This document shows, piece after piece, positions 1-59,302 of a DNA stretch of 59,302 bases (position 1 is the first letter of the stretch; the number at the start of each line of letters is the position of its first letter). The translations under genes and the position numbers were made by a program. The DNA comes from a virus: positions 1-59,302 of IMG/VR virus record IMGVR_UViG_3300046167_000227. One strand, 5' to 3'. The notes under the pieces are model-generated. The model did not search any database and was not told the origin of the DNA. It saw only the letters and a list, made by a program, of their open reading frames with translations.

Positions 1-681
1 ATACATTAGCACCTCTATTAGCAACCTCATTATAGTACAAGCTAGACATTTTCTCAGCTTTCCTATCTGATTTAACTATGTTCTTAATTATTTCTGCAAC
101 ATCTACACCATCTAATTTAATGTTTGCCCATGATTTGTAACTTTTTAGATTTGTGCATAGAAATCTTGTTTAGCATTTTGTAATTCATCTATGAATGTAT
201 CTATGTTAAAATTAGATGTGTTTTTACGTCTAACCTTATCATATTCACCTCTTATCTGACCATTAGTACAAAAGAAATCTATTGCACCAAAAAACACTTG
301 ATTAGACATACTACCATCAACACCATGTAATGCTATGATACGTTCAGCAATGGTAGTTGTATGCTTATCAGTAGTTATTTTAGTAGTAACATTAGGTAAG
401 GTTATATCAGCTATTATTACTGCATTATCTTTAGCAGTAGATACCTTAACTTTAAGCATTTCTAATTCGTATGGTGTCCTATTTTCTTTTATCACATTCT
501 CTACACCATCAATAAAATTCATATGTGATGTTGTATTAAAACTTTTAACCTACTATACCTATTGGAGTATCAGTTAAAGTATTGATTACATATTTTTTGC
601 TAGGTAATCTTGTTTTTCCTCATATGCAATATCAAATTTTAAATTGTCATTTAATTGTATTAATCTATTTGTATCTAACAT
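1..681 (-). pseudogene. DUF932-like protein, left copy, cut by contig edge and frameshifted
   Basis: Second copy of the intact gene at 55343-56191. The ATG is at 681-679 and the reading frame runs off the left end. Extra bases near 130-160, 455-460 and 545-625 break the frame, leaving one clean central piece (145-522). Several differences from the right copy are silent, indicating a real strain variant plus sequencing indels. Confidence 0.75.
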
Positions 682-982
682 TATTTATTCTCCTGTTGTT
701 TATTTAATTTTTCGTATTGTGCTTTTGTTATTTTAAAATCATATTTAGTTTTATCATCTTTAGTTATTTTTTTATAAAATATAGGATTGTTTAGTAATTG
801 TTCTTTTAATGTAATTCCTGTTAATAAAAATTGTCTTTCACTAAGTTTAGGAATTGAAATTCATTTCTTAAATCGTCATCAGTTTTACATTGTCTCATAT
901 CAATTTGAAAGTTAGACAATGGCAATTCCATACTATTTATATTACCTGTTAACTTAGATTTTCTATATATTTTATGTAACAT
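681..982 (-). pseudogene. Small hypothetical protein, left copy, frameshifted
   Basis: Counterpart of 56191-56448. The N-terminal half is recognisably the same (TGNINSMELPLS is shared). The middle is broken by a frameshift, and the 3' part holds about 60 extra bases absent from the right copy. Its stop overlaps the DUF932 start, as in the right copy. Function unknown. Confidence 0.5.
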
Positions 983-1009
983 CTTATATTCTCCTTTTGT
1001 TATTGTTAG

Positions 1010-1219
1010 TTATACAAGTAAAACTACATCATTATAATTTACTTGTAAAGAGTTATTTAATTTATTTTTGTCTTTTAATAATTGTCCTGTTATTGCATCT
1101 CTACTTACATAAAAGTAACCTACATTATGTGAGATAGTACCTTTTTGAGCATACCTACTTGTAGTACGTCTAAAGAAAATGTTTTTATTTCCTATTGGAT
1201 TTTTAATTATGTTTTTCAT
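1010..1219 (-). CDS. Hypothetical protein, 69 aa (left copy, intact)
   Basis: Small basic protein rich in Asn, Lys and Arg, with no recognised domain. This copy is open, whereas the right copy (56473-56686) carries an extra A that shifts its frame. A TTGACA promoter lies upstream at 1266-1294. The last codons overlap an inverted repeat around 1013-1045 (see 56481-56512). Confidence 0.55.
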   Translation of the reverse strand: MKNIIKNPIGNKNIFFRRTTSRYAQKGTISHNVGYFYVSRDAITGQLLKDKNKLNNSLQVNYNDVVLLV

Positions 1220-1265
1220 TGTATTATTCCTTTCATTTTGTTATACAATTATTTTCTATTCTTAT

Positions 1266-1294
1266 GTTATGTCATACAACTAAAAGTATGTCAA
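1266..1294 (-). promoter_or_regulatory. Predicted sigma70-type promoter (left copy)
   Basis: On the minus strand TTGACA is followed after 17 bases by CATAAC, upstream of the 69-aa gene. The same element occurs at 56732-56760. The -10 is one base from the TATAAC used by other promoters of this phage. Confidence 0.45.
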
Positions 1295-1303
1295 TAACTT
1301 TAT

Positions 1304-1450
1304 TTACTTTTTTTTATTATATTCTCTTCTATATTTTTCATTACCTCCTGTTACTGCTTTCATTAATCTATACTTAGTTTCTATTTCAAATTGTCTTAAT
1401 TTACGTCTATCAATTTCTTTTAATAGTTTTAGTTTTATATTGTATTTCAT
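1304..1450 (-). CDS. Basic small protein, 48 aa (left copy)
   Basis: Open frame from ATG 1450 to TAA 1304, encoding a Lys/Arg-rich helical peptide (MKYNIKLKLLKEIDRRKLRQ at the start). Its ATG overlaps the stop of the upstream 63-aa gene (ATGA), a sign of translational coupling. The right copy at 56770-56916 gives the same protein. Confidence 0.55.
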   Translation of the reverse strand: MKYNIKLKLLKEIDRRKLRQFEIETKYRLMKAVTGGNEKYRREYNKKK

Positions 1451-1638
1451 TTTAATAAATCCTTTATATTTGTTTCATTTTCTAATTGTACATCATATCC
1501 CATTGATGCAATAGTATTTAAATTTTCTATTGACAATGTTTTAGTTTTGGCAATATCTGAAAATGATTTAGCTATTTTACATTTAGGATATATTAATTGA
1601 TTACCGTATACATTTTTTATAAATACTTGTATTTTCAT
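1447..1638 (-). CDS. Hypothetical protein, 63 aa (left copy, intact)
   Basis: Small protein without a recognised domain. It is intact here and frameshifted in the right copy (56913-57105) by one extra base. Conservation of the peptide around that indel supports a real gene. Its stop codon overlaps the start of the 48-aa gene downstream. Confidence 0.55.
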   Translation of the reverse strand: MKIQVFIKNVYGNQLIYPKCKIAKSFSDIAKTKTLSIENLNTIASMGYDVQLENETNIKDLLK

Positions 1639-1713
1639 TCTATTAAAATCCTTTTCTATTTAGTTATATAATTAAACTATATTATTATTTTTTAGTTAGT
1701 CAACTATTTATTT

Positions 1714-1936
1714 TTATTTATTTGTTTTTATTGTAGATGGATATTTTAAATTAAATTCATAAACATTGCCAATTTTATATAAACATATAGCTATTAACAT
1801 TGTTAACAAATATAATATAAAGTATTGAAATAATAAATTATTATATCTTAATTCATCTATAAAGAATATAAAACTAATTCCTAAAGTTTAAATTACATAT
1901 TACAGTTATAAAACCTAGTATATGATATTTATTCAT
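1714..1936 (-). CDS. Small two-helix membrane protein, about 73 aa (left copy, one frameshift)
   Basis: Removing one base from the T-run near 1888-1890 opens a single frame from ATG 1936 to TAA 1714. The product would have two hydrophobic segments (about residues 7-27 and 38-55) and a polar tail ending KTNK. Part of the right copy (57179-57408) matches it. This explains an otherwise empty gap in the early block. Function unknown; early phage membrane proteins of this size can be exclusion or inhibitor proteins, but nothing here shows that. Confidence 0.5.
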
Positions 1937-1972
1937 TTTAATTGCCTTTCTATACTACTATCATGTTTTATT

Positions 1973-1998
1973 ATGGTGTGACATTTTTGCCACACCAT
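1973..1998. terminator. Hairpin at cassette boundary (left copy)
   Basis: Eight-base perfect stem (ATGGTGTG / CACACCAT), extendable inward, lying just after the stop of the leftward gene at 2015. On the plus strand it is followed by a T-rich run. The same hairpin is at 57446-57471. Likely a terminator or an mRNA 3'-end structure. Confidence 0.5.
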
Positions 1999-2014
1999 TT
2001 TATATTTATTTAAT

Positions 2015-2730
2015 TTATTTTGCTTTTTCAATAATTGTTTTAACATCATTAAATGTATAACAAACTAAGCAATCTTTACATTTTTGAAAACAATTTATAT
2101 TATTATCCTTATCAAAATTATTTTTATATGTTTTCATAATCATTTTTAATTTTAGTTTTCATATCTCTTGTTATTTCATTCTTATTAAAAAACATTGTAT
2201 GTTGATTATAATATTTTTTGTATGATAACTTAAGCACATTATTAAATGTTTTATCAAAATGTTTTGGTATTTTAGTTAATGGCTTATCTAATATTGGATT
2301 AGAATATATTAATATTAAATTACTAGGTTTATCATTGTTATCAAAAAACTTTTTAATAATATCAAATCTTTTAGACCATAAAGTAAAAGTAGTTTTTGGA
2401 TTTTTCTAGCTATGTTTACATAGTTTTGAATGTTATTTAAATTAATCAATTCCCCATGACTATCAAAACCTAAAATATAAATCAAATATTCTTGGCAAGT
2501 TATCCCATTCAATGATTGAGTTACTTAATAATTTACTATTCTTTTCAAGTAATGCTACCATTGATTTGCGAAAATTTAAGGTAGTAAAAGAATAACATTT
2601 ATTACATATGATATCTTTTTTATCTTTTTGTTTAATGCAATATTCATTTGTTAAAGTATTAGTAGAAATATTATTTATACTTTTCCATTTTGAAAGCACC
2701 TTTTGAAATATGTAAAGTTTGAGTATTCAT
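2015..2730 (-). CDS. Gp88-like Cys-rich protein (frameshifted)
   Basis: Reconstructed across several indels (near 2405-2420, 2475-2500 and 2685-2700) from ATG 2730 to TAA 2015, about 238 aa. Visible pieces fit the mycobacteriophage Gp88-type family (PF17338). The N-terminus reads HISKG then KWKSINNIS. A Cys cluster follows (EYC then IICNKCYS). The middle reads NPKTTFTLWSKRFD, and the C-terminus has a second cluster (CFQKCKDCLVC). Two Cys clusters suggest metal or Fe-S binding; the family's function is not established. This gene has no counterpart in the right copy, where an unrelated-length gene occupies exactly the same slot. Confidence 0.5.
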
Positions 2731-2797
2731 TTTGTTTTAATCCTTTTTAAAATTTAATTGTTAGTAGGTTAATTTATTTATTTGTATAAGTAAAGTT

Positions 2798-2986
2798 TTA
2801 TTTAATGCTATTCCTATTTTATGCATCTTTTCAATTAGTATAGATGTTTTCATTTTTTGTAATTCATCTATATTATATTTATTAAAACATTTACTTTCAA
2901 TTACTGATTGTATTTTGGATTGCCTATTAAATTATTTGTTTCAATAATATAATTTTTATAAAGTTTATTAAATCTTGTTTATTCAT
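2798..2986 (-). pseudogene. 63-aa protein, left copy, frameshifted
   Basis: Counterpart of the intact gene 58567-58758. Missing bases near 2800 and 2915, plus others, break the frame. The leader with its AAAGGATTAA ribosome-binding site is preserved. Confidence 0.5.
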
Positions 2987-3001
2987 TTTGTTTAATCCTT
3001 T

Positions 3002-3254
3002 TTAATTGTTATATTGTTTAGTACTAATATTCATAAATATTAATTAATTGATTAATACTATTATTTAATTTTTTAATTTCATTATCATATTTATTATTAG
3101 TAAAACTATAACCATAAATATTTTTTAACTAAACAAATTTCATTACTATTTATTTTTTTAAACTTTTTAACTTTTAAATAATCAATTTGTTTTCAAGTTT
3201 TTCTATTCTTTTTAATAAACTATTTTTTATTATATAGTAAGTTTGTTTATTCAT
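3002..3254 (-). pseudogene. Coiled-coil protein, about 83 aa, left copy, frameshifted
   Basis: Counterpart of 58774-59026. Start MNKQTYYIIKNSLLKRIEKL; Lys/Asn-rich and strongly helical. Comparing the two copies restores one frame of about 83 codons, because each copy carries its own indel. It is the first gene of the leftward early operon. Confidence 0.5.
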
Positions 3255-3363
3255 TGTATTAAATCCTTTTGTTGTTATTTATTTGTATAACTAAAAACAT
3301 ATATTAAAAACATTGTCAACAGGTATTATTATTTTATTTATATGTATAGCTTTAATGATAGAG

Positions 3364-3382
3364 GTATCAGTTTTTGTGATAC
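3364..3382. promoter_or_regulatory. Operator-like inverted repeat (left copy)
   Basis: GTATCA, a 7-base loop, then TGATAC, followed at once by the palindrome TGATATCA. This gives four TGATA/TATCA half-sites in about 28 bases. The block is conserved in the right copy at 59134-59161. It lies upstream of the first leftward early gene, so it could bind a repressor. Confidence 0.4.
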
Positions 3383-3541
3383 ATGATATCAAAAGATTAT
3401 ATAAAAGAATAACTGTTAATTAATCAGTTTAAACTATGCATATTATACTACCATATATAGCTATAAATTAAATTATTCAGTCTATATATAGCATATAAAT
3501 GTTATTTTATTTCAGATACTTAGCTATTGATGATAGAAAAT

Positions 3542-6686: not shown

Positions 6687-7390
6687 TGTCATATCTTATA
6701 AGTAACGTACCACATTTTAAATGTTGGGTACGTAAGGAGTTCACTTGTAATCATATGAATTATCACGGTGAATACCTACACGCACTAGCTTTCGCAGTTA
6801 ATACCATACCTGATAGGTCACTAAGTTTTCAGGTAGTCTTCACAGGTTGTACAGAAGATGACAATGTACACGGTGGTGCAATGTGGGCAAGGATGCCCAT
6901 ACAGGCACTCGTAGCTGACATACCTGTAGACGAATGGGCAGAGCCAATGGAAGACCACTTATGTCAACCTTGGGATTGTGAATCAAGAAACCATAGTGTT
7001 ATAGTTATGGACAGAGTCAGTTCTAGTCCGTGGTTATGTAAGATAGGCAATGAGTTCTACACAGCTAAGTATATGTTTACTGTTGACTACACAGACAGTG
7101 ACATAGCAGATGACCCTGCACAGCATAAGCAGTCACACGTGATGTACTTGTTGGATGCAGGAAAATGGACAGGCAATATAGTTGCACTGCCAAATAACAG
7201 AGTAAGAGCTACAAGTCCTGCTCTGTGGGTTACAGGAGAAGGTGCTCCAGACTTTGCACCATCACAGTGGACACACTCAGCAGAGTCACACGAATCTTAC
7301 CTAGACCCATTTACTACATTTAACAATTTATATGAGGATAGAGATGGCACTAGCAAAGGCAAAAAGAACAATAAAAAAAGTAGCAAGTAA
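6686..7390 (+). CDS. Conserved uncharacterised phage protein, 234 aa
   Basis: Well-folded composition, rich in Trp, His and Cys, unlike its basic neighbours, ending in a Lys/Ser tail. Starts MSYLISNVPHFKCWVRKEF. I recall similar proteins in marine phages but not a function. TAATG overlap upstream; the next gene starts within its last 50 bases. Confidence 0.65.
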   Translation: MSYLISNVPHFKCWVRKEFTCNHMNYHGEYLHALAFAVNTIPDRSLSFQVVFTGCTEDDNVHGGAMWARMPIQALVADIPVDEWAEPMEDHLCQPWDCESRNHSVIVMDRVSSSPWLCKIGNEFYTAKYMFTVDYTDSDIADDPAQHKQSHVMYLLDAGKWTGNIVALPNNRVRATSPALWVTGEGAPDFAPSQWTHSAESHESYLDPFTTFNNLYEDRDGTSKGKKNNKKSSK

Positions 7391-45448: not shown

Positions 45449-45477
45449 GTTATATCACATAACGTCTTTTGTGTCAA
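45449..45477 (-). promoter_or_regulatory. Strong promoter at 3' end of polymerase gene
   Basis: Minus strand TTGACA (45477-45472), 17 bases, TATAAC (45454-45449). It lies in the polymerase stop region and fires into the acidic-tail protein and the downstream nucleotide genes. Confidence 0.65.
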
Positions 45478-47481
45478 GCCAATTATTACCTATTTTTGCT
45501 TCTAATAATAATGGAACATTGAACTCTAATGCAAACTCACTATTAATTAAATTAATCATTTTACTATTGACTATTTTAATAACATGAATCACTTTTTGTA
45601 TCTCTTCAGGATGTATGTCTATGACTATAGAATCATGCACACTGTTTACAATACAAGACTTTAAGTTTACTAATTCATTCTCTATGTTTATTAGTATAAG
45701 AGGAACTATATCAGCAGTAGCAAACGACTGAACAGGATAGTTCTTTATCTGTGTAAAGTGAGACACCTTACCATAAGAGTTTCTTCTAACGTCAGGGAAT
45801 GAGAACTGTCTACCTGATGGTGTAGTTATCTTTCTAGTACTTATAACTTCTTTAGCCAATTTGGAGTGCCATAATGCGATTCCTTCGTACTTTTCCGTGA
45901 AGTGTTTATAATATGTAGCCTGAGCAGGTGTCCTTCCAAACCCTGTTGCTCCATATAGTGGTGCAAAGGTATGAGCCTTTGCTTCTTGGCGAGATGTCTT
46001 CTCACCTGCATCACTAATAACACTAGCAGTATAACTATGAACGTCAAAACCATCGCAACCTCCTCAATAGCGACTTTATCTTGTGATAAATATGCCGCAG
46101 CTCTAAACTCAAGTTGTGCAAAATCTGCCTCCAATATCTTTCCATTATCCCAACGTGATACAAACACTTTCTTCACAGGAAACGTACCACCTCTAGGCAT
46201 GTTCTGCATGTTAGGGTCTGCACCACTAAACCTACCAGTAGATGTTCTATGTTGTAACAATCTTACATGTAACTTACCATCAGGTTTTACGTATGTCTTT
46301 ATGCCTTGTACAAAGGATGACAAGTAAGTATCTAATGCAGACAGTCTTTGTAAGTCTGATAAGAAACTCATTGCCTCTGACATATTTAATTTCTTAGCAC
46401 CATCATGTAATATATCAAGAAACTTTTTATTAACACTAAAACCATTTGCACTTACCCATTTAGCTGATGGTGCAGAGAACTTTAATCCTGCTATCTTGTT
46501 GCTATTAGTAAAAGTGTAGCCAGTACCAGTGCAAGTATTACATTTGGGTTGCTTAACATAAGGGTTTCCATCTTTTCTAACCTTTCTCATTGAACCTGAT
46601 CCATAACAATCCTTACATTTTACAGCTATAGTTTTGTACACTATATCTGATGTCTCGCTAACTACTTCTTTGTAATTAGATGTCTTCATGTATGAATCAA
46701 AGTTGTGTGTCCAAGTAGTTTTATCTTTAGGCTTTCTACTATATATAACCCAAGACATCTGCTCTGGACTATTTAAGTTGATAGGTGTGTCACCCATTAA
46801 GTTTTTAACTTGAATCTTTAGACGTTTCTCTATGTCTTGTTTCTCTGTCTCAAACTCAACTCTAACTTCCTCAAGCTTATTTAAATCTACTGCAAATCCT
46901 TTTTGATATATGTTTGCTAGTGTTAAAGCAACCTTGTTAGTTAGTATAACTGTATCCATCAACTCGCTATATTCAACCGTATTTAGTTTTCTATATATTT
47001 CATCAGATAACTGCTGTGTTGCATGTAAGTCAGCAGACAAGTACTCAGATAATTCTTCAGGTGGTATGTCAGCAACTGAAAAACCTTTCTTGAAGTATTC
47101 TTTTAAGGTATCTTGTTTCTGTGTAGCTAACTCATATCTCTCAGCACATGCCTCAAGAGACAATGCTTTTTTGACACCACGTTGTAGGACATACTCACCT
47201 AACATAGTATCAAACACAGGACCTGTATAGGTTAGACCACATTCCCATATCCACATCAAGTCGTGTACTATGTTATGTCCAATAAGTATTGTACAAGCAT
47301 CTAGTAACTCTTGTATCTTCTGATGTGCATCTGTGTCTGTTGACATTCTAAACAGATATTCTTCTTTTGTGTCTGTTAAACACCCAACCATAATCAACTC
47401 ATTATCTGTTTCAAATGGATCAAGGTGTAACTTACCATCTCTAGTTGTGACTGTATTCTCTACGTCAAGTGTCAGTTTCAT
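45455..47481 (-). CDS. DNA polymerase A with DnaJ-like zinc insert (one frameshift)
   Basis: Replicative polymerase. A 3'-5' exonuclease domain comes first (Asp6-x-Glu8; GHNIVHDL 68-75; Asp151). Then an insert (about 285-325) with two CxxCxGxG-type knuckles (Cys289/292 and Cys314/317), the DnaJ-like element of HMO-2011-type polymerases. The polymerase domain has motif A DFAQLEFR (Asp453), motif B RQEAKAHTFAPLYGATGFG and motif C VHDSIV. The frame breaks at about 46050: one missing base after EEVA shifts it, and restoring it gives NGFDVHSYTAS. Full length about 675 aa. Confidence 0.88.
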
Positions 47482-49982: not shown

Positions 49983-50857
49983 ATTTTTTCTTGTACTTAA
50001 TGCTAAATTAGCAGAAGCAAAGGTATTCTTCATGTAAGGCTTAACACTTTGTGGGTTTGCATGTCCTGTGACAGACATTATTTGCCCATTGACACACCAG
50101 CTTCTACCATCTCAGTCGTACCTGTTCTTCTTAAGTCTGCAATCGTAAGCTCTTTAGACAGTCCTGCAGAGTCCATAATCTTTCTGCCTACTATGGATAG
50201 CCTAGTGATGGTGTAAGGCTTGTACGCCTCTCTCTAGAGCGAGGGCGAGGGTGCTACATATTCTTGGAAACCAAAGTCTTCTTTCTGTTGTGTAAGCATT
50301 TAGTTAATCCATCACTTATAGGCAGATGAACTGTTGCACCTCGTCTTGGATTGCTCTAAGTTGAGTATCCTTTTGTCATAATCTATGCTATCAAACTGTA
50401 GCAATCTCATATCTCCTATCCTTTGACACCATTCATATGCCATTTGTACAATTAAACCTAGACTACGATATTGAAAATCTGCATAACAGAAATCTAATAA
50501 CTGCATAATCTGTTCTTTTGTCCATGTAACTTTTCTAGGCTTAGTAACTTTACACTTGAATGTAGAGAATGGATTAGTCTCAGCATAACCCATCTCCATT
50601 CCAAATGAATAAACTTTCCTAGAGGTAGCACATATATGGTTTGCCATATAAATGCCACGTTTTAGCCACACTTCATATGATTGTCTAGCAACTGCACCTG
50701 TCAATTTATTGACCTTAGTTGTATAAACAAACTTATCATCTATCTTAGTGTTCAACATTACAGATAAACAATTTGAATAATCTACTTTAGTTTTATCTGC
50801 TAACATATTGAAATCACTAGACAAATAGTACTTGTCTACTAAGCTATTTATATTCAT
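49971..50857 (-). pseudogene. int: Tyrosine-recombinase integrase, multiply broken
   Basis: ATG 50857 (MNINSLVDKYYLSSDFNMLA) is preferred to 50893 because of GGAG upstream. The frame is open to about 50312. The rest survives in fragments: ATVHLPISDGLTK, MLTQQKEDFGFQEYVAP, KPYTITRLSIVGRKIMDSAG, then DLRRTGTTEMVEAGVSM, IMSVTGHANPQSVKPYMKNT. Catalytic signatures DLRRT, TGH and the Tyr of KPYMK are visible. At least four disruptions (two frameshifts near 50312-50340, an in-frame TAG near 50235, a frameshift near 50085) are denser than elsewhere, so real decay is possible besides sequencing error. Confidence 0.75.
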
Positions 50858-51101
50858 AAGACCCACTCCATCTTGTATAGTGTCCATGTTCACACTCTAC
50901 CTTAGCACCTACTATGTCAGCAAGTTGATGTTCCATGCCATCTAACTTACAGATTTGTTCATAGTCTAATGGACACTTATCGTCTGTTACTGCATTAATA
51001 TTTCTTAATGTTTCTAACATCTCTAAGATTTGTCTTGACTGTTGTTGTGTCAAATTTAAAATTTTATTTATGTCTTTAAATACTATTTTCTTTTTAGTCA
51101 T
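50844..51101 (-). CDS. Hypothetical protein, 85 aa
   Basis: Helical N-terminus (TKKKIVFKDINKILNLTQQQ), three Cys and a C-terminal CEHGHYTRWSGSYEYK. No domain recognised. Overlaps the integrase start by 14 bases. Confidence 0.55.
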   Translation of the reverse strand: MTKKKIVFKDINKILNLTQQQSRQILEMLETLRNINAVTDDKCPLDYEQICKLDGMEHQLADIVGAKVECEHGHYTRWSGSYEYK

Positions 51102-55342: not shown

Positions 55343-56191
55343 TTATGCAACTAATTCAAGTTTCTTAAACTCATTAGATGATATCCATTTGCTTACCTCT
55401 TGTTCTCTATTCCACATAGATAAACTTTCAGTATCATTGCCCATATTCTTTAGGCTAAATCCATTTCTTTCATCAGCATAGCTAGAGTAGTTAGTAAATG
55501 CTGAGTATAAAGAGAATACATTAGCACCTCTATTAGCAACCTCATTATAGTACAAGCTAGACATTTTCTCAGCTTTCCTATCTGATTTAACTATGTTCTT
55601 AATGATTTCTGCGACATCTACACCATCTAATTTAATGTTTGCCCATGATTGTAACTTTTTAGATTGTGCATAGAAATCTTGTTTAGCATTTTGTAATTCA
55701 TCTATGAATGTATCTATGTTAAAATTAGATGTATTCTTACGTCTAACTTTATCATATTCACCTCTTATCTGACCATTAGTACAAAAGAAATCTATTGCAC
55801 CAAAAAATACTTGATTAGACATACTACCATCAACTCCATGTAATGCTATGATACGTTCAGCAATGGTAGTTGTATGCTTATCAGTAGTTATTTTAGTAGT
55901 AACATTAGGTAAGGTTATATCAGCTATTATTACTGCATTATCTTTAGCAGTAGATACCTTAACTTTAGCATTTTCTAATTCGTGAGATGTTCTATTTTCT
56001 TTTATAACATTCTCTACACCATCAATGAAATTCATATGAGATGTTGTATTAAAACTTTTACCTACTATACCTATTGGAGTATCAGTTAAAGTATTGATTA
56101 CATATTTCTTGCTAGGTAATCTTGTCTTTTCATATGCAATATCAAATTTTAAATTGTCATTTAATTGTATTAATCTATTTGTATCTAACAT
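55343..56191 (-). CDS. DUF932-family protein, 282 aa
   Basis: Intact copy. INTLTDTPIGIVGKSFNTTS, then ADITLPNVTTKITTD, ALHGVDGSMSNQVFFGAIDF and FCTNGQIRGEYDKVRRKNTS follow the DUF932 layout found in phages and plasmids; function unproven. The C-terminal 90 residues are helical. Its ATG overlaps the stop of the preceding small gene. A frameshifted partial copy is at 1-681. Confidence 0.75.
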   Translation of the reverse strand: MLDTNRLIQLNDNLKFDIAYEKTRLPSKKYVINTLTDTPIGIVGKSFNTTSHMNFIDGVENVIKENRTSHELENAKVKVSTAKDNAVIIADITLPNVTTKITTDKHTTTIAERIIALHGVDGSMSNQVFFGAIDFFCTNGQIRGEYDKVRRKNTSNFNIDTFIDELQNAKQDFYAQSKKLQSWANIKLDGVDVAEIIKNIVKSDRKAEKMSSLYYNEVANRGANVFSLYSAFTNYSSYADERNGFSLKNMGNDTESLSMWNREQEVSKWISSNEFKKLELVA

Positions 56192-56448
56192 TATTTATTC
56201 TCCTGTTGTTTATTTAATTTTCTATTGTGTATATCTTCGTCTAATGTAATTCCTGTTAATAAAAATTGCCTTTCACTAAAGTTTAGGAATTGAAATTCAC
56301 TTCTTAAATCTATATTTGGATTATCATTAATTCTATTTATATCTACAAATGACAATGGTAATTCCATACTATTTATATTACCTGTTAAATCAGATTTTCT
56401 AGATATCATATTAAATTTATGTAACTTATGTTTTTTTAATGTAAGCAT
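56191..56448 (-). CDS. Hypothetical protein, 85 aa
   Basis: Begins MLTLKKHKLHKFNMISRKSD, basic at the N-terminus; FLNFSERQFLLTGITLDEDI near the end. AGGAGAA ribosome-binding site. The left copy (681-982) differs in its 3' part. Function unknown. Confidence 0.55.
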   Translation of the reverse strand: MLTLKKHKLHKFNMISRKSDLTGNINSMELPLSFVDINRINDNPNIDLRSEFQFLNFSERQFLLTGITLDEDIHNRKLNKQQENK

Positions 56449-56472
56449 TTTGTATTCTCCTTTTGTTATTGG

Positions 56473-56686
56473 TTAGTTATATAAGTAAACTACACCATTA
56501 TAATTTACTTGTAAAGAGTTATTTAATTTATTTTTGTCTTTTAATAAATTGTCCTGTTACTGCACATCTACTAACATAAAAGTAACCTACGTTATGGGAA
56601 ATTGTACCTTTTTGAGCATACCTACTTGTAGTACGTCTAAAGAAAATGTTTTTATTTCCTATTGGATTTTTAATTATGTTTTTCAT
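56473..56686 (-). pseudogene. 69-aa protein, right copy, frameshifted
   Basis: Counterpart of intact 1010-1219. An extra A in the run near 56545 shifts the frame after residue 46. The 3' end overlaps the palindromic element 56481-56512. Confidence 0.5.
56481..56512 (-). promoter_or_regulatory. Second palindromic TATAAT element
   Basis: Arms ACAAGTAAA / TTTACTTAT around TTATAATGG...TAG, with arm length, spacing and core matching 55301-55332. It sits at the 3' end of the 69-aa gene and before the 85-aa gene. A shared regulator is likely. Confidence 0.45.
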
Positions 56687-56731
56687 TGTATTATCCTTTC
56701 ATTTTGTTATACAATTATTTTCTATTCTTAT

Positions 56732-56760
56732 GTTATGTCATACAACTAAAAGTATGTCAA
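56732..56760 (-). promoter_or_regulatory. Predicted sigma70-type promoter (right copy)
   Basis: TTGACA, 17 bases, CATAAC on the minus strand, between the 48-aa and 69-aa genes. Conserved in the left copy (1266-1294). Confidence 0.45.
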
Positions 56761-56769
56761 TAACTTTAT

Positions 56770-56916
56770 TTACTTTTTTTTATTATATTCACGTCTATAT
56801 TTTTCATTACCTCCTGTTACTGCTTTCATTAATCTATATTTAGTTTCTATTTCAAATTGTCTTAATTTACGTCTATCAATTTCTTTTAATAGTTTTAGTT
56901 TTATATTGTATTTCAT
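56770..56916 (-). CDS. Basic small protein, 48 aa (right copy)
   Basis: Same product as 1304-1450, with mainly silent DNA differences (for example CGT for AGA), which supports coding. Its ATG overlaps the stop of the upstream gene. Confidence 0.55.
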   Translation of the reverse strand: MKYNIKLKLLKEIDRRKLRQFEIETKYRLMKAVTGGNEKYRREYNKKK

Positions 56917-57105
56917 TTTAATAATTCCTTTATATCTACTTCATTTTCTAATTGTACATCATATCCCATTGATGTAATAGTATTTAAAGTTTCTATTGAC
57001 AATGTTTTAGTTTTGGCAATATCTGAAAATGATTTAGCTATTTTACATTTAGGATATATTAACTTGATTACCGTATACATTTTTTATAAATACTTGTATT
57101 TTCAT
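56913..57105 (-). pseudogene. 63-aa protein, right copy, frameshifted
   Basis: Counterpart of intact 1447-1638. One extra base near 57062-57066 breaks the frame after GNQ. The remainder matches (PKCKIAKSFSDIAKTKTLSI). Confidence 0.5.
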
Positions 57106-57178
57106 TCTATTATTTCCTTTTCTATTTAGTTATATAATTAAAGTATATTATTATTTTTAGTTAGTCAATTAATTATTT

Positions 57179-57408
57179 TTATTTATTTGTTTTTATTGTA
57201 GATGGATATTTTACTATTAAACTCTTTAACTTTCAGCCTATTTTATGTAAACATATAGCTATTAAACATTGTTAACAAATATAATAAGAAATAGTGTAAC
57301 ATTAAATTATTATATCTTTAATATCGTCTAATATAGAATATTAAACTAATTCCTAAAGTTAAATTACATATTACAGTTATATAACACTAGTATATGATAT
57401 ACTATTCA
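57179..57408 (-). pseudogene. Small two-helix membrane protein, right copy, several frameshifts
   Basis: Counterpart of 1714-1936. Collinear DNA with ATG 57408 and TAA 57179, but at least three indels and a diverged centre. The gap 57110-57440 otherwise holds nothing. Confidence 0.35.
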
Positions 57409-57445
57409 TTTTAATTGCCTTTCTATACTACTATCATGTTTTATT

Positions 57446-57471
57446 ATGGTGTGACATTTTTGCCACACCAT
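57446..57471. terminator. Hairpin at cassette boundary (right copy)
   Basis: ATGGTGTG / CACACCAT stem, identical to 1973-1998, eight bases past the stop of the leftward gene. On the plus strand it is followed by TTTTATATTTATTT. It marks the exact point where the two terminal copies stop matching. Confidence 0.5.
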
Positions 57472-57478
57472 TTTATAT

Positions 57479-58500
57479 TTATTTGTTTAAACTTGCTATC
57501 TTTACAAATCCACTTAATATTGCTTTATTTAATTCAATTAATCTTTTATCCTTTTTATCCTTAGCTTTATATTTAAATCTTAATCCAATTATACATTGTT
57601 CTTTATGTTGTGGTAAGTAATCGTGTAAATCTCCGTCAATAACTTTAAATATTTTGTTATTAACTTTATATGTTTTAGGTAAATCTTTATTTCTTTTTGT
57701 ATCAAATACCATAGCTAAACTTAAACCATTATTAATAGCTATTTTAGTTTTATTAGTATCATTATCACTTACTGAATAAACAAACTTATAATCTTTATTA
57801 GCTATTCTATTAAAGTTTTTAGTATAATCATAATTTTTTAATATAATATCTTTATCATTATCTATTTTAGTTTGTTGTATTATTTCATTAGCTATATTAG
57901 AAAATGTATTTACTTTATTATTATAAACAATATTAATATTTTCATATTCAATATCACTTGAAATATTAAAACGTATAGATAATAAAAGACTATTTCTTAA
58001 ACAGTAATTAGCTTTTAATTGTATATATCTAATATACATAGCTAAAAATAACATAGGATTATTTAATAATAACTTTTTACGTTTTAACATAGCTTTTTGT
58101 TTAGCATCTATATAAGCAGGATTGCCACTATAAAAGATAACGCAATTACTTTTACAAGATGTTGTTGCATTGTTACAAACTGTTGTAATAACTTTATCTA
58201 ATCCATTATAATTTAAATAATCTAATATATCTTTATGATAATCATTATTATTAAAATCTTTTATTAATTCGTATGGTGCAATAGCAATACCTATTGAATA
58301 CATATTTAATTCTTTTAAGTTTTTAGCTAGTTTAGTTTGTGATTTGCTTTCACTTAAAAACGTAGTAAATCCATAATCCTTACATACGTTTTTTTAATTG
58401 GTTTAAATTCATATCTAAAACTTTAATGTTAATTATAAGTAACATTATCTAAGTTAAAAGTTTTACTAGTTAAATATTTATTTATATCTAATTTAATCAT
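57479..58500 (-). CDS. DUF7227-like Cys-containing protein, about 340 aa (frameshifts near 5' end)
   Basis: Open from 58303. An upstream frame (ATG 58500, MIKLDINKYLTSKTFNLDNV) joins it through indels near 58430 and 58393, giving TTFLSESKSQTKLAKNLKEL before MYSIGIAIAPYEL. Features: CNNATTSCKSNCVIFYSGNP (Cys cluster), KRKKLLLNNP, IRFNISSDIEYENI, NYDYTKNFNR, IDGDLHDYLPQ and IIGLRFKYKAKDKK, all fitting a phage family I recall as DUF7227, sometimes labelled replication initiator. Function unproven. Absent from the left copy. Confidence 0.6.
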
Positions 58501-58566
58501 TTTGTTTAATCCTTTTTAAAATTTAATTGTTAATAGGTTAATTTATTTATTTGTATAAGTAAAGTT

Positions 58567-58758
58567 TTATTTTAATGCTATTCCTATTTTATGCATCTTT
58601 TCAATTAGTATAGATGTTTTCATTTTTTGTAATTCATCTATATTATATTTATTAAAACATTTACTTTCAATTACTGATTGTATTTTTGGATTGCCTATTA
58701 AATTATTTGTTTCAATAATATAATTTTTTATAAAGTTTATTAAATCTTGTTTATTCAT
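58567..58758 (-). CDS. Hypothetical helical protein, 63 aa
   Basis: MNKQDLINFIKNYIIETNNL; Lys/Asn/Ile-rich. Intact here, broken in the left copy (2798-2986). AAAAGGATT ribosome-binding site. Function unknown. Confidence 0.55.
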   Translation of the reverse strand: MNKQDLINFIKNYIIETNNLIGNPKIQSVIESKCFNKYNIDELQKMKTSILIEKMHKIGIALK

Positions 58759-58773
58759 TTTGTTTAATCCTTT

Positions 58774-59026
58774 TTAATTGTTATATTGTTTAGTACTAAT
58801 ATCATAAATATTAATTAATTGATTAATACTATTATTTAATTTTTTAATTTCATTATCATATTTATTATTAGTAAAAACTATAACCATAAATATTTTTAAC
58901 TAAACAAATTTCATTACTATTTATTTTTTTAAACTTTTTAACTTTTAAATAATCAATTTGTTTTTCAAGTTTTTCTATTCTTTTTAATAAACTATTTTTT
59001 ATTATATAGTAAGTTTGTTTATTCAT
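58774..59026 (-). CDS. Coiled-coil protein, about 83 aa (one frameshift)
   Basis: ATG 59026; removing one base near 58875 gives a single frame ending STKQYNN at TAA 58774. First gene of the leftward operon, downstream of the operator-like block. Lys-rich coiled coil; no function recognised. Confidence 0.5.
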
Positions 59027-59133
59027 TGTATTAAATCCTTTTGTTGTTATTTATTTGTATAACTAAAACATATATTAAAAACATTGTCAACAGGTATTAT
59101 TATTTTATTTATATGTATAACTTTATGATATAG

Positions 59134-59161
59134 GTATCAGTTTTTGTGATACATGATATCA
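59134..59161. promoter_or_regulatory. Operator-like repeats (right copy)
   Basis: GTATCA-loop-TGATAC followed by TGATATCA, identical to the left copy (from 3364). About 110 bases upstream of the first leftward ATG. A TTGACA occurs at 59092-59097 (minus strand) without a clear -10. Confidence 0.4.
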
Positions 59162-59302
59162 AAAGATTATATTAAAGATAACTGTTAATAAATCAGTTTT
59201 AAACTATTCATATTAACTACCATATATAGCTATAAATTAAATTATTCAGTCTATATATAGCATATAAATGTTATTTTATTTCAGATACTTAGCTATTGAT
59301 GA

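Follow-up and report, generated by a model that had tools for sequence, protein, structure and literature searches.

T4-type phages carry mobile regulatory cassettes termed promoter early stem-loops (PeSLs; Arbiol et al. 2010; Comeau et al. 2014, cited in PMC4503421). They are placed between small accessory genes of a plastic genome region, in which close relatives shuffle genes across conserved intergenic segments. In lambdoid and other phages, mosaicism arises through short conserved boundary sequences; in most phages such sequences are not seen (reviewed in PMC3029335). The window analysed here, a stretch of 59,302 nucleotides that makes up the virus record IMGVR_UViG_3300046167_000227 of IMG/VR, contains a locus with features of both systems. 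Like boundary-sequence mosaics, it has an entire gene replaced within conserved flanks (between the left and right ends of the window, between the relatives L008 and L014, and between L009 and L251, the latter with leader and shared 3' tag), but it differs from them in that several independent pairs affect the same slot, with three gene types. Phage mosaicism is of a known kind and is unusually clean in this case. What is new is the slot itself, the three types of gene that it holds, and the finding that two GP88 branches exclude each other in the records searched.

The window fits the HMO-2011 group by its polymerase, class II RNR, helicase and DUF932 genes (compared with PMC9038755), and the protein encoded at positions 14790-16472 matches HMO-2011 and the Roseobacter CRP phages. 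Genome size, the class II RNR, a DUF932 gene located upstream of the replication genes and, possibly, a family A polymerase with a DnaJ-like insert are features shared with HMO-2011-type phages (PMC9038755). In the Pfam search, a single ORF matches both DNA_pol_A (E-value 3.6e-20) and DnaJ_CXXCXGXG (4.9e-5; 24.0 bits, below the cut-off of 32.7). The window differs from HMO-2011-type phages by an AT-rich accessory block of about 21% GC, and its DUF932 protein is only about 51-55% identical to those of HMO-2011, CRP-1 and CRP-345. The DUF932 gene (55343-56191, minus strand; Pfam DUF932, 1.8e-7) is the syntenic anchor downstream of the slot and served as query for the survey of relatives. The gene for the family A DNA polymerase (45455-47481) is broken up into two ORFs that overlap, for which a sequencing indel is the probable cause, and positions 50312-50893 hold a fragment with a weak match to tyrosine integrases (1.7e-5, below cut-off), where HMO-2011 has an integrase gene.

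The two ends of the window, 1-3533 (haplotype 1) and 55516-59302 (haplotype 2), are two copies of one locus, which are 94-99% identical outside gaps in a global alignment. They diverge exactly from the ATG to the stop codon of one gene, with near-identity on either side of this slot (not counting gaps, identity is 99.0% in its 5' flank and 93.9% in its 3' flank). The inserts, 2015-2730 in the left copy (716 nt) and 57479-58500 in the right copy (1022 nt), lie on the minus strand and are unrelated DNA. At the 5' junction, the ribosome-binding leader TTAAAAAGGATTAAACAAA-ATG (2731-2751 and 58501-58519, minus strand) is identical in both copies, except for a single A within a homopolymer. The 3' junction coincides with the stop codon and is followed by the hairpin ATGGTGTGACATTTTTGCCACACCAT, which has perfect 8-bp arms and is identical at 1973-1998 and 57446-57471. 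The leader motif has three matches in the window versus 0.01 expected, and it occurs a second time in front of the next upstream gene (2984-3005 in the left copy and 58756-58777 in the right copy, minus strand). The 3' motif of the window, ATGATAGTAGTATAGAAAGG, was absent from all other viral contigs searched. The slot is real and chance is excluded. The proposal of a first-pass annotation, which had described a one-gene cassette swap at a variable locus with fixed leader and 3' flank, is thus borne out by the alignment, including the cassette sizes of 716 and 1022 bases.

The same annotation placed both copies in one genome. Their position at the very ends of the contig would agree with a single virion genome that has real, long direct terminal repeats, each with a different cassette. 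Replication should leave such repeats identical, but the copies differ by point changes, by the slot gene and by a second, smaller allele difference that affects one small gene (about 690-985 / 56191-56448). Furthermore, the HMO-2011 reference record is circular (55,282 bp), and in the relatives L006, L007, L008 and L013 the locus is present once per contig at an internal position, between window-left and window-right sequence. Therefore, the window shows one locus twice, in two haplotypes; terminal repeats are extremely improbable and the idea of two copies within one genome is not supported. The window represents a circular genome of the HMO-2011 type (~55.77 kb) whose assembly was over-closed and overran its own start, and the two window ends are two co-occurring haplotypes. 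The assembly would have continued past its starting point, with the two overlapping ends presumably derived from two co-occurring strains. When two strains are assembled into an over-closed circle, the result can be mistaken for terminal repeats that are not identical. L006 and L007 appear to be one phage recovered from two samples, and the contig of L014 stops just beyond the slot.

Frameshifts and the split polymerase mark the window as an error-prone contig, and in a related scaffold (G005) an N gap coincides exactly with the slot. Both observations would be compatible with an assembly chimera, in which the assembler joined one gene to flanks where this gene never occurs. Independent contigs, however, link branch A (L013, L014) and branch B (L006, L008) of the slot genes to homologous flanks, and the exact junctions are repeated in L008 and L014. 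A chimera is thus very unlikely, and the corresponding objection, already raised in the first-pass annotation, is answered by contigs that connect either allele to its flanks. When the flanks of the two end copies are compared, 31 of the 33 gap events concern a single base, and frameshifts are present in both window copies; the broken frames are taken to reflect sequencing indels and not pseudogenes.

Among 47 other records examined with both profiles, many of which are fragments, 40 carry branch A, seven carry branch B and none carries both. Relatives with the two genes in series, which would have contradicted the swap, are thus missing from this set, and no record searched with the Pfam model contains two GP88 matches. 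L008 (B) and L014 (A) have in common a leader of roughly 90 bp with a palindrome as well as the 3' flank, while they differ in the slot gene and in the gene upstream. The suggested survey of related genomes for other slot genes yielded a third type: in other relatives, a gene for a DUF7178 protein (Pfam PF23802, E-value 4.5e-35) is located behind the same leader and in front of the same 3' tag. The slot holds one gene of at least three types, GP88 A, GP88 B or DUF7178. The 18-nt 3' tag, which was defined from the relatives, is present in 12 viral contigs, nine from relatives and three unrelated; in the nine relatives it always follows the slot gene (three with B, one with A and five with DUF7178, three of these five contigs looking like the same phage).

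Another replacement is seen between L103 (DUF7178) and L135 (B), which are 100% identical over 9,061 bp starting in the final bases of the slot gene, and a common palindromic leader precedes the slot genes of L009 (B) and L251 (DUF7178). For a group of marine phages that is abundant and mostly uncultured, the locus offers a clean natural example of the replacement of a single gene, seen in several independent pairs, one of them identical over 9 kb beside the swap. In the L010/L135 scaffold, ten Ns are located exactly at the 5' side of the slot and the sequence to the left of the Ns resembles the arrangement of L103. In this public IMG/VR scaffold (L256, contig of L010), the N gap lies at bases 493-502 and joins two different slot arrangements. 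The contig of L009 stops 22 bp beyond the slot and that of L014 79 bp beyond it. The N gap and these contig ends are suggestive of alleles coexisting in a sample. L006 is a mosaic: its GP88 gene is of the type found in the right copy of the window (97.2% identity), but its neighbouring small gene, at the site of the second allele difference, is of the left-copy type (99% identity, versus 83-85% for the right copy). Within a few hundred bases, genes have different histories, a pattern that small exchanges would produce if they recur.

The left slot gene belongs to GP88 branch A and contains several frameshifts in the window, despite which it is matched by the profile of its relatives (A1) with an E-value of 1.1e-59; the intact proteins of L013 and L014 comprise 237 aa. 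The right slot gene belongs to branch B and is frameshifted near the N-terminus, leaving an ORF of 274 aa at 57479-58303, while intact relatives in L006 and L008 encode 336 aa. It is matched by the profile of its own branch, with a source alignment that excludes the window, at 9.2e-156. In Pfam, the right gene scores 42 bits with GP88 (PF17338; E-value 1.3e-10), above the curated cut-off of 24.4 bits, and so does the intact left-type relative L014 (32.5 bits, 1e-7), while the broken left copy of the window is not called by this model. The DUF7227 label given to the right gene in the first-pass annotation does not stand: no DUF7227 match was found in Pfam for this gene at E-values up to 1 or for relatives up to 5, and a DUF7227-named model is only a weak structural match (2.7e-3, versus 5.5e-18 for GP88).

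Direct profile comparison revealed no link between branches A and B. AlphaFold models of the two (pLDDT 88 and 82) find their best named GP88 matches in BFVD at 1.6e-7 (A) and 5.5e-18 (B), and they have the targets A0A6J5TA47, A0A3Q8I2K9 and A0A088FWV7 in common, together with the weaker DUF7227-named A0A6J5RX07. By our reading, the motifs occur in the same order, with three cysteines after the first strand, an R strand that ends in GE (branch A) or SD (branch B), a W/Y-S/T-K motif and then a serine. Because of the shared Pfam family, the shared structural matches and the colinear motifs, A and B are likely homologous, deeply diverged branches of GP88. Within this family, A carries an additional C-terminal cluster of four cysteines, which B does not have. 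Both genes are under purifying selection, with dN/dS values of 0.06 (A) and 0.14 (B). Relevant work on GP88 or DUF7227 was not found in the literature searched, sequence searches found no solved structure for A, B or DUF7178, and no NCBIfam name was found for the proteins of the slot region.

The first-pass annotation also suspected that the two products are functionally analogous, which is plausible, as both are GP88-family proteins with a three-cysteine cluster after the first strand. The solved structures closest to the A and B models are radical SAM enzymes, with Z-scores of only 5.1 and 6.0, which are within the range of common arrangements; a Foldseek search of branch A against the PDB gave nothing significant. 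The canonical CX3CX2C motif of radical SAM enzymes is absent, A having C-X10-C-X2-C and B having C-X6-C-X3-C. Radical SAM chemistry of the two proteins is at this point a guess from predicted models. Both forms might be radical-SAM-like enzymes with a cysteine cluster that perform the same kind of accessory job. A description of DUF5131 as a radical SAM family was not found in the literature searched. PADLOC returned no match for six proteins of the slot region, leaving a role in defence unsupported. Two protein branches that replace each other probably share one job, which provides a testable hypothesis for the uncharacterised GP88 family.

In 16 of the 24 intergenic gaps of the array, an inverted repeat is present that is reached by at most 2 of 60 shuffles. 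The sequence of these palindromes varies between relatives but their pairing is preserved, for example in front of DUF932 (TACAAGTAAG/CTTACTTGTA, TACAAGTAGA/TCTACTTGTA and ACTAACACA/TGTGTTAGT). Gene-specific palindromes are observed in most AT-rich array gaps, namely in both window ends (1-3533 and 55516-59302), in L006 (5371-9314), and in L008, L013 and L102; they could act as operators, as RNA hairpins or as boundaries for recombination. Within the window stretch no palindrome has a canonical terminator, and the one detected in L006 is near chance. The likeness to PeSLs, as cited in PMC4503421, consists of stem-loops in the intergenic regions of a shuffled array of small accessory genes and of close relatives exchanging genes across conserved intergenic segments. 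The differences are that the window is HMO-2011-like and not T4-type, that the stem-loop sequences vary between relatives, and that one gene is kept per slot. PeSLs join an early promoter to the stem-loop; promoter-like sites at the palindromes are not above shuffles in this AT-rich DNA.

By analogy with PeSLs (cited in PMC4503421) and with boundary sequences (PMC3029335), the leaders and palindromes would be suitable boundaries for homologous exchange. Whole coding sequences, from start to stop codon, are swapped between related phages at a slot in the AT-rich array of small genes, probably by homologous recombination at conserved intergenic segments during co-infection. The boundaries would be the ribosome-binding leader upstream, and the palindrome together with the leader of the next gene downstream. 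The window encodes endonuclease I, endonuclease VII and a possible PD-(D/E)XK nuclease, and such phage nucleases may help the exchange. A homing endonuclease or transposon as carrier was rejected, since the cassette holds only one gene.

Although the slot gene of L006 and that of the right copy are nearly the same, their leaders hardly align, and therefore conserved boundaries are not needed in every exchange. This pair is in line with illegitimate recombination whose breakpoints are random, with selection then retaining intact genes, or with rapid replacement of intergenic regulatory elements around stable genes. So is a near copy of the post-slot hairpin of the window (TATTATGGTGTGA..TCACACTATAATA), which is found in L006 one gene further along (7111-7259), as though its place among the genes had shifted. 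The combination of identical leaders with different genes in the two window copies, in L008/L014 and in L009/L251 is, however, what is expected if leaders are used; such processes are unlikely as the main cause, albeit a serious contender, and they may act in addition to exchange at boundaries. An over-extended circle of two strains, with a one-gene slot swapped at conserved boundaries, is the best explanation of the whole and can be held with good confidence. A more far-reaching version, in which the slot is a dedicated allele-exchange site where accessory enzymes of a new radical-SAM-like family (GP88 A/B) and DUF7178 take one another's place under selection driven by host or defence, and in which intergenic elements with dyads have evolved into boundaries for recombination in a non-T4 phage group, is improbable. 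Beside the ribosome-binding site of the next gene (1954-1964 and 57427-57437), the window has the motif ATGATAGTAGT, and several relatives have its reverse complement ACTACTATCAT, as if a short element had been inverted.
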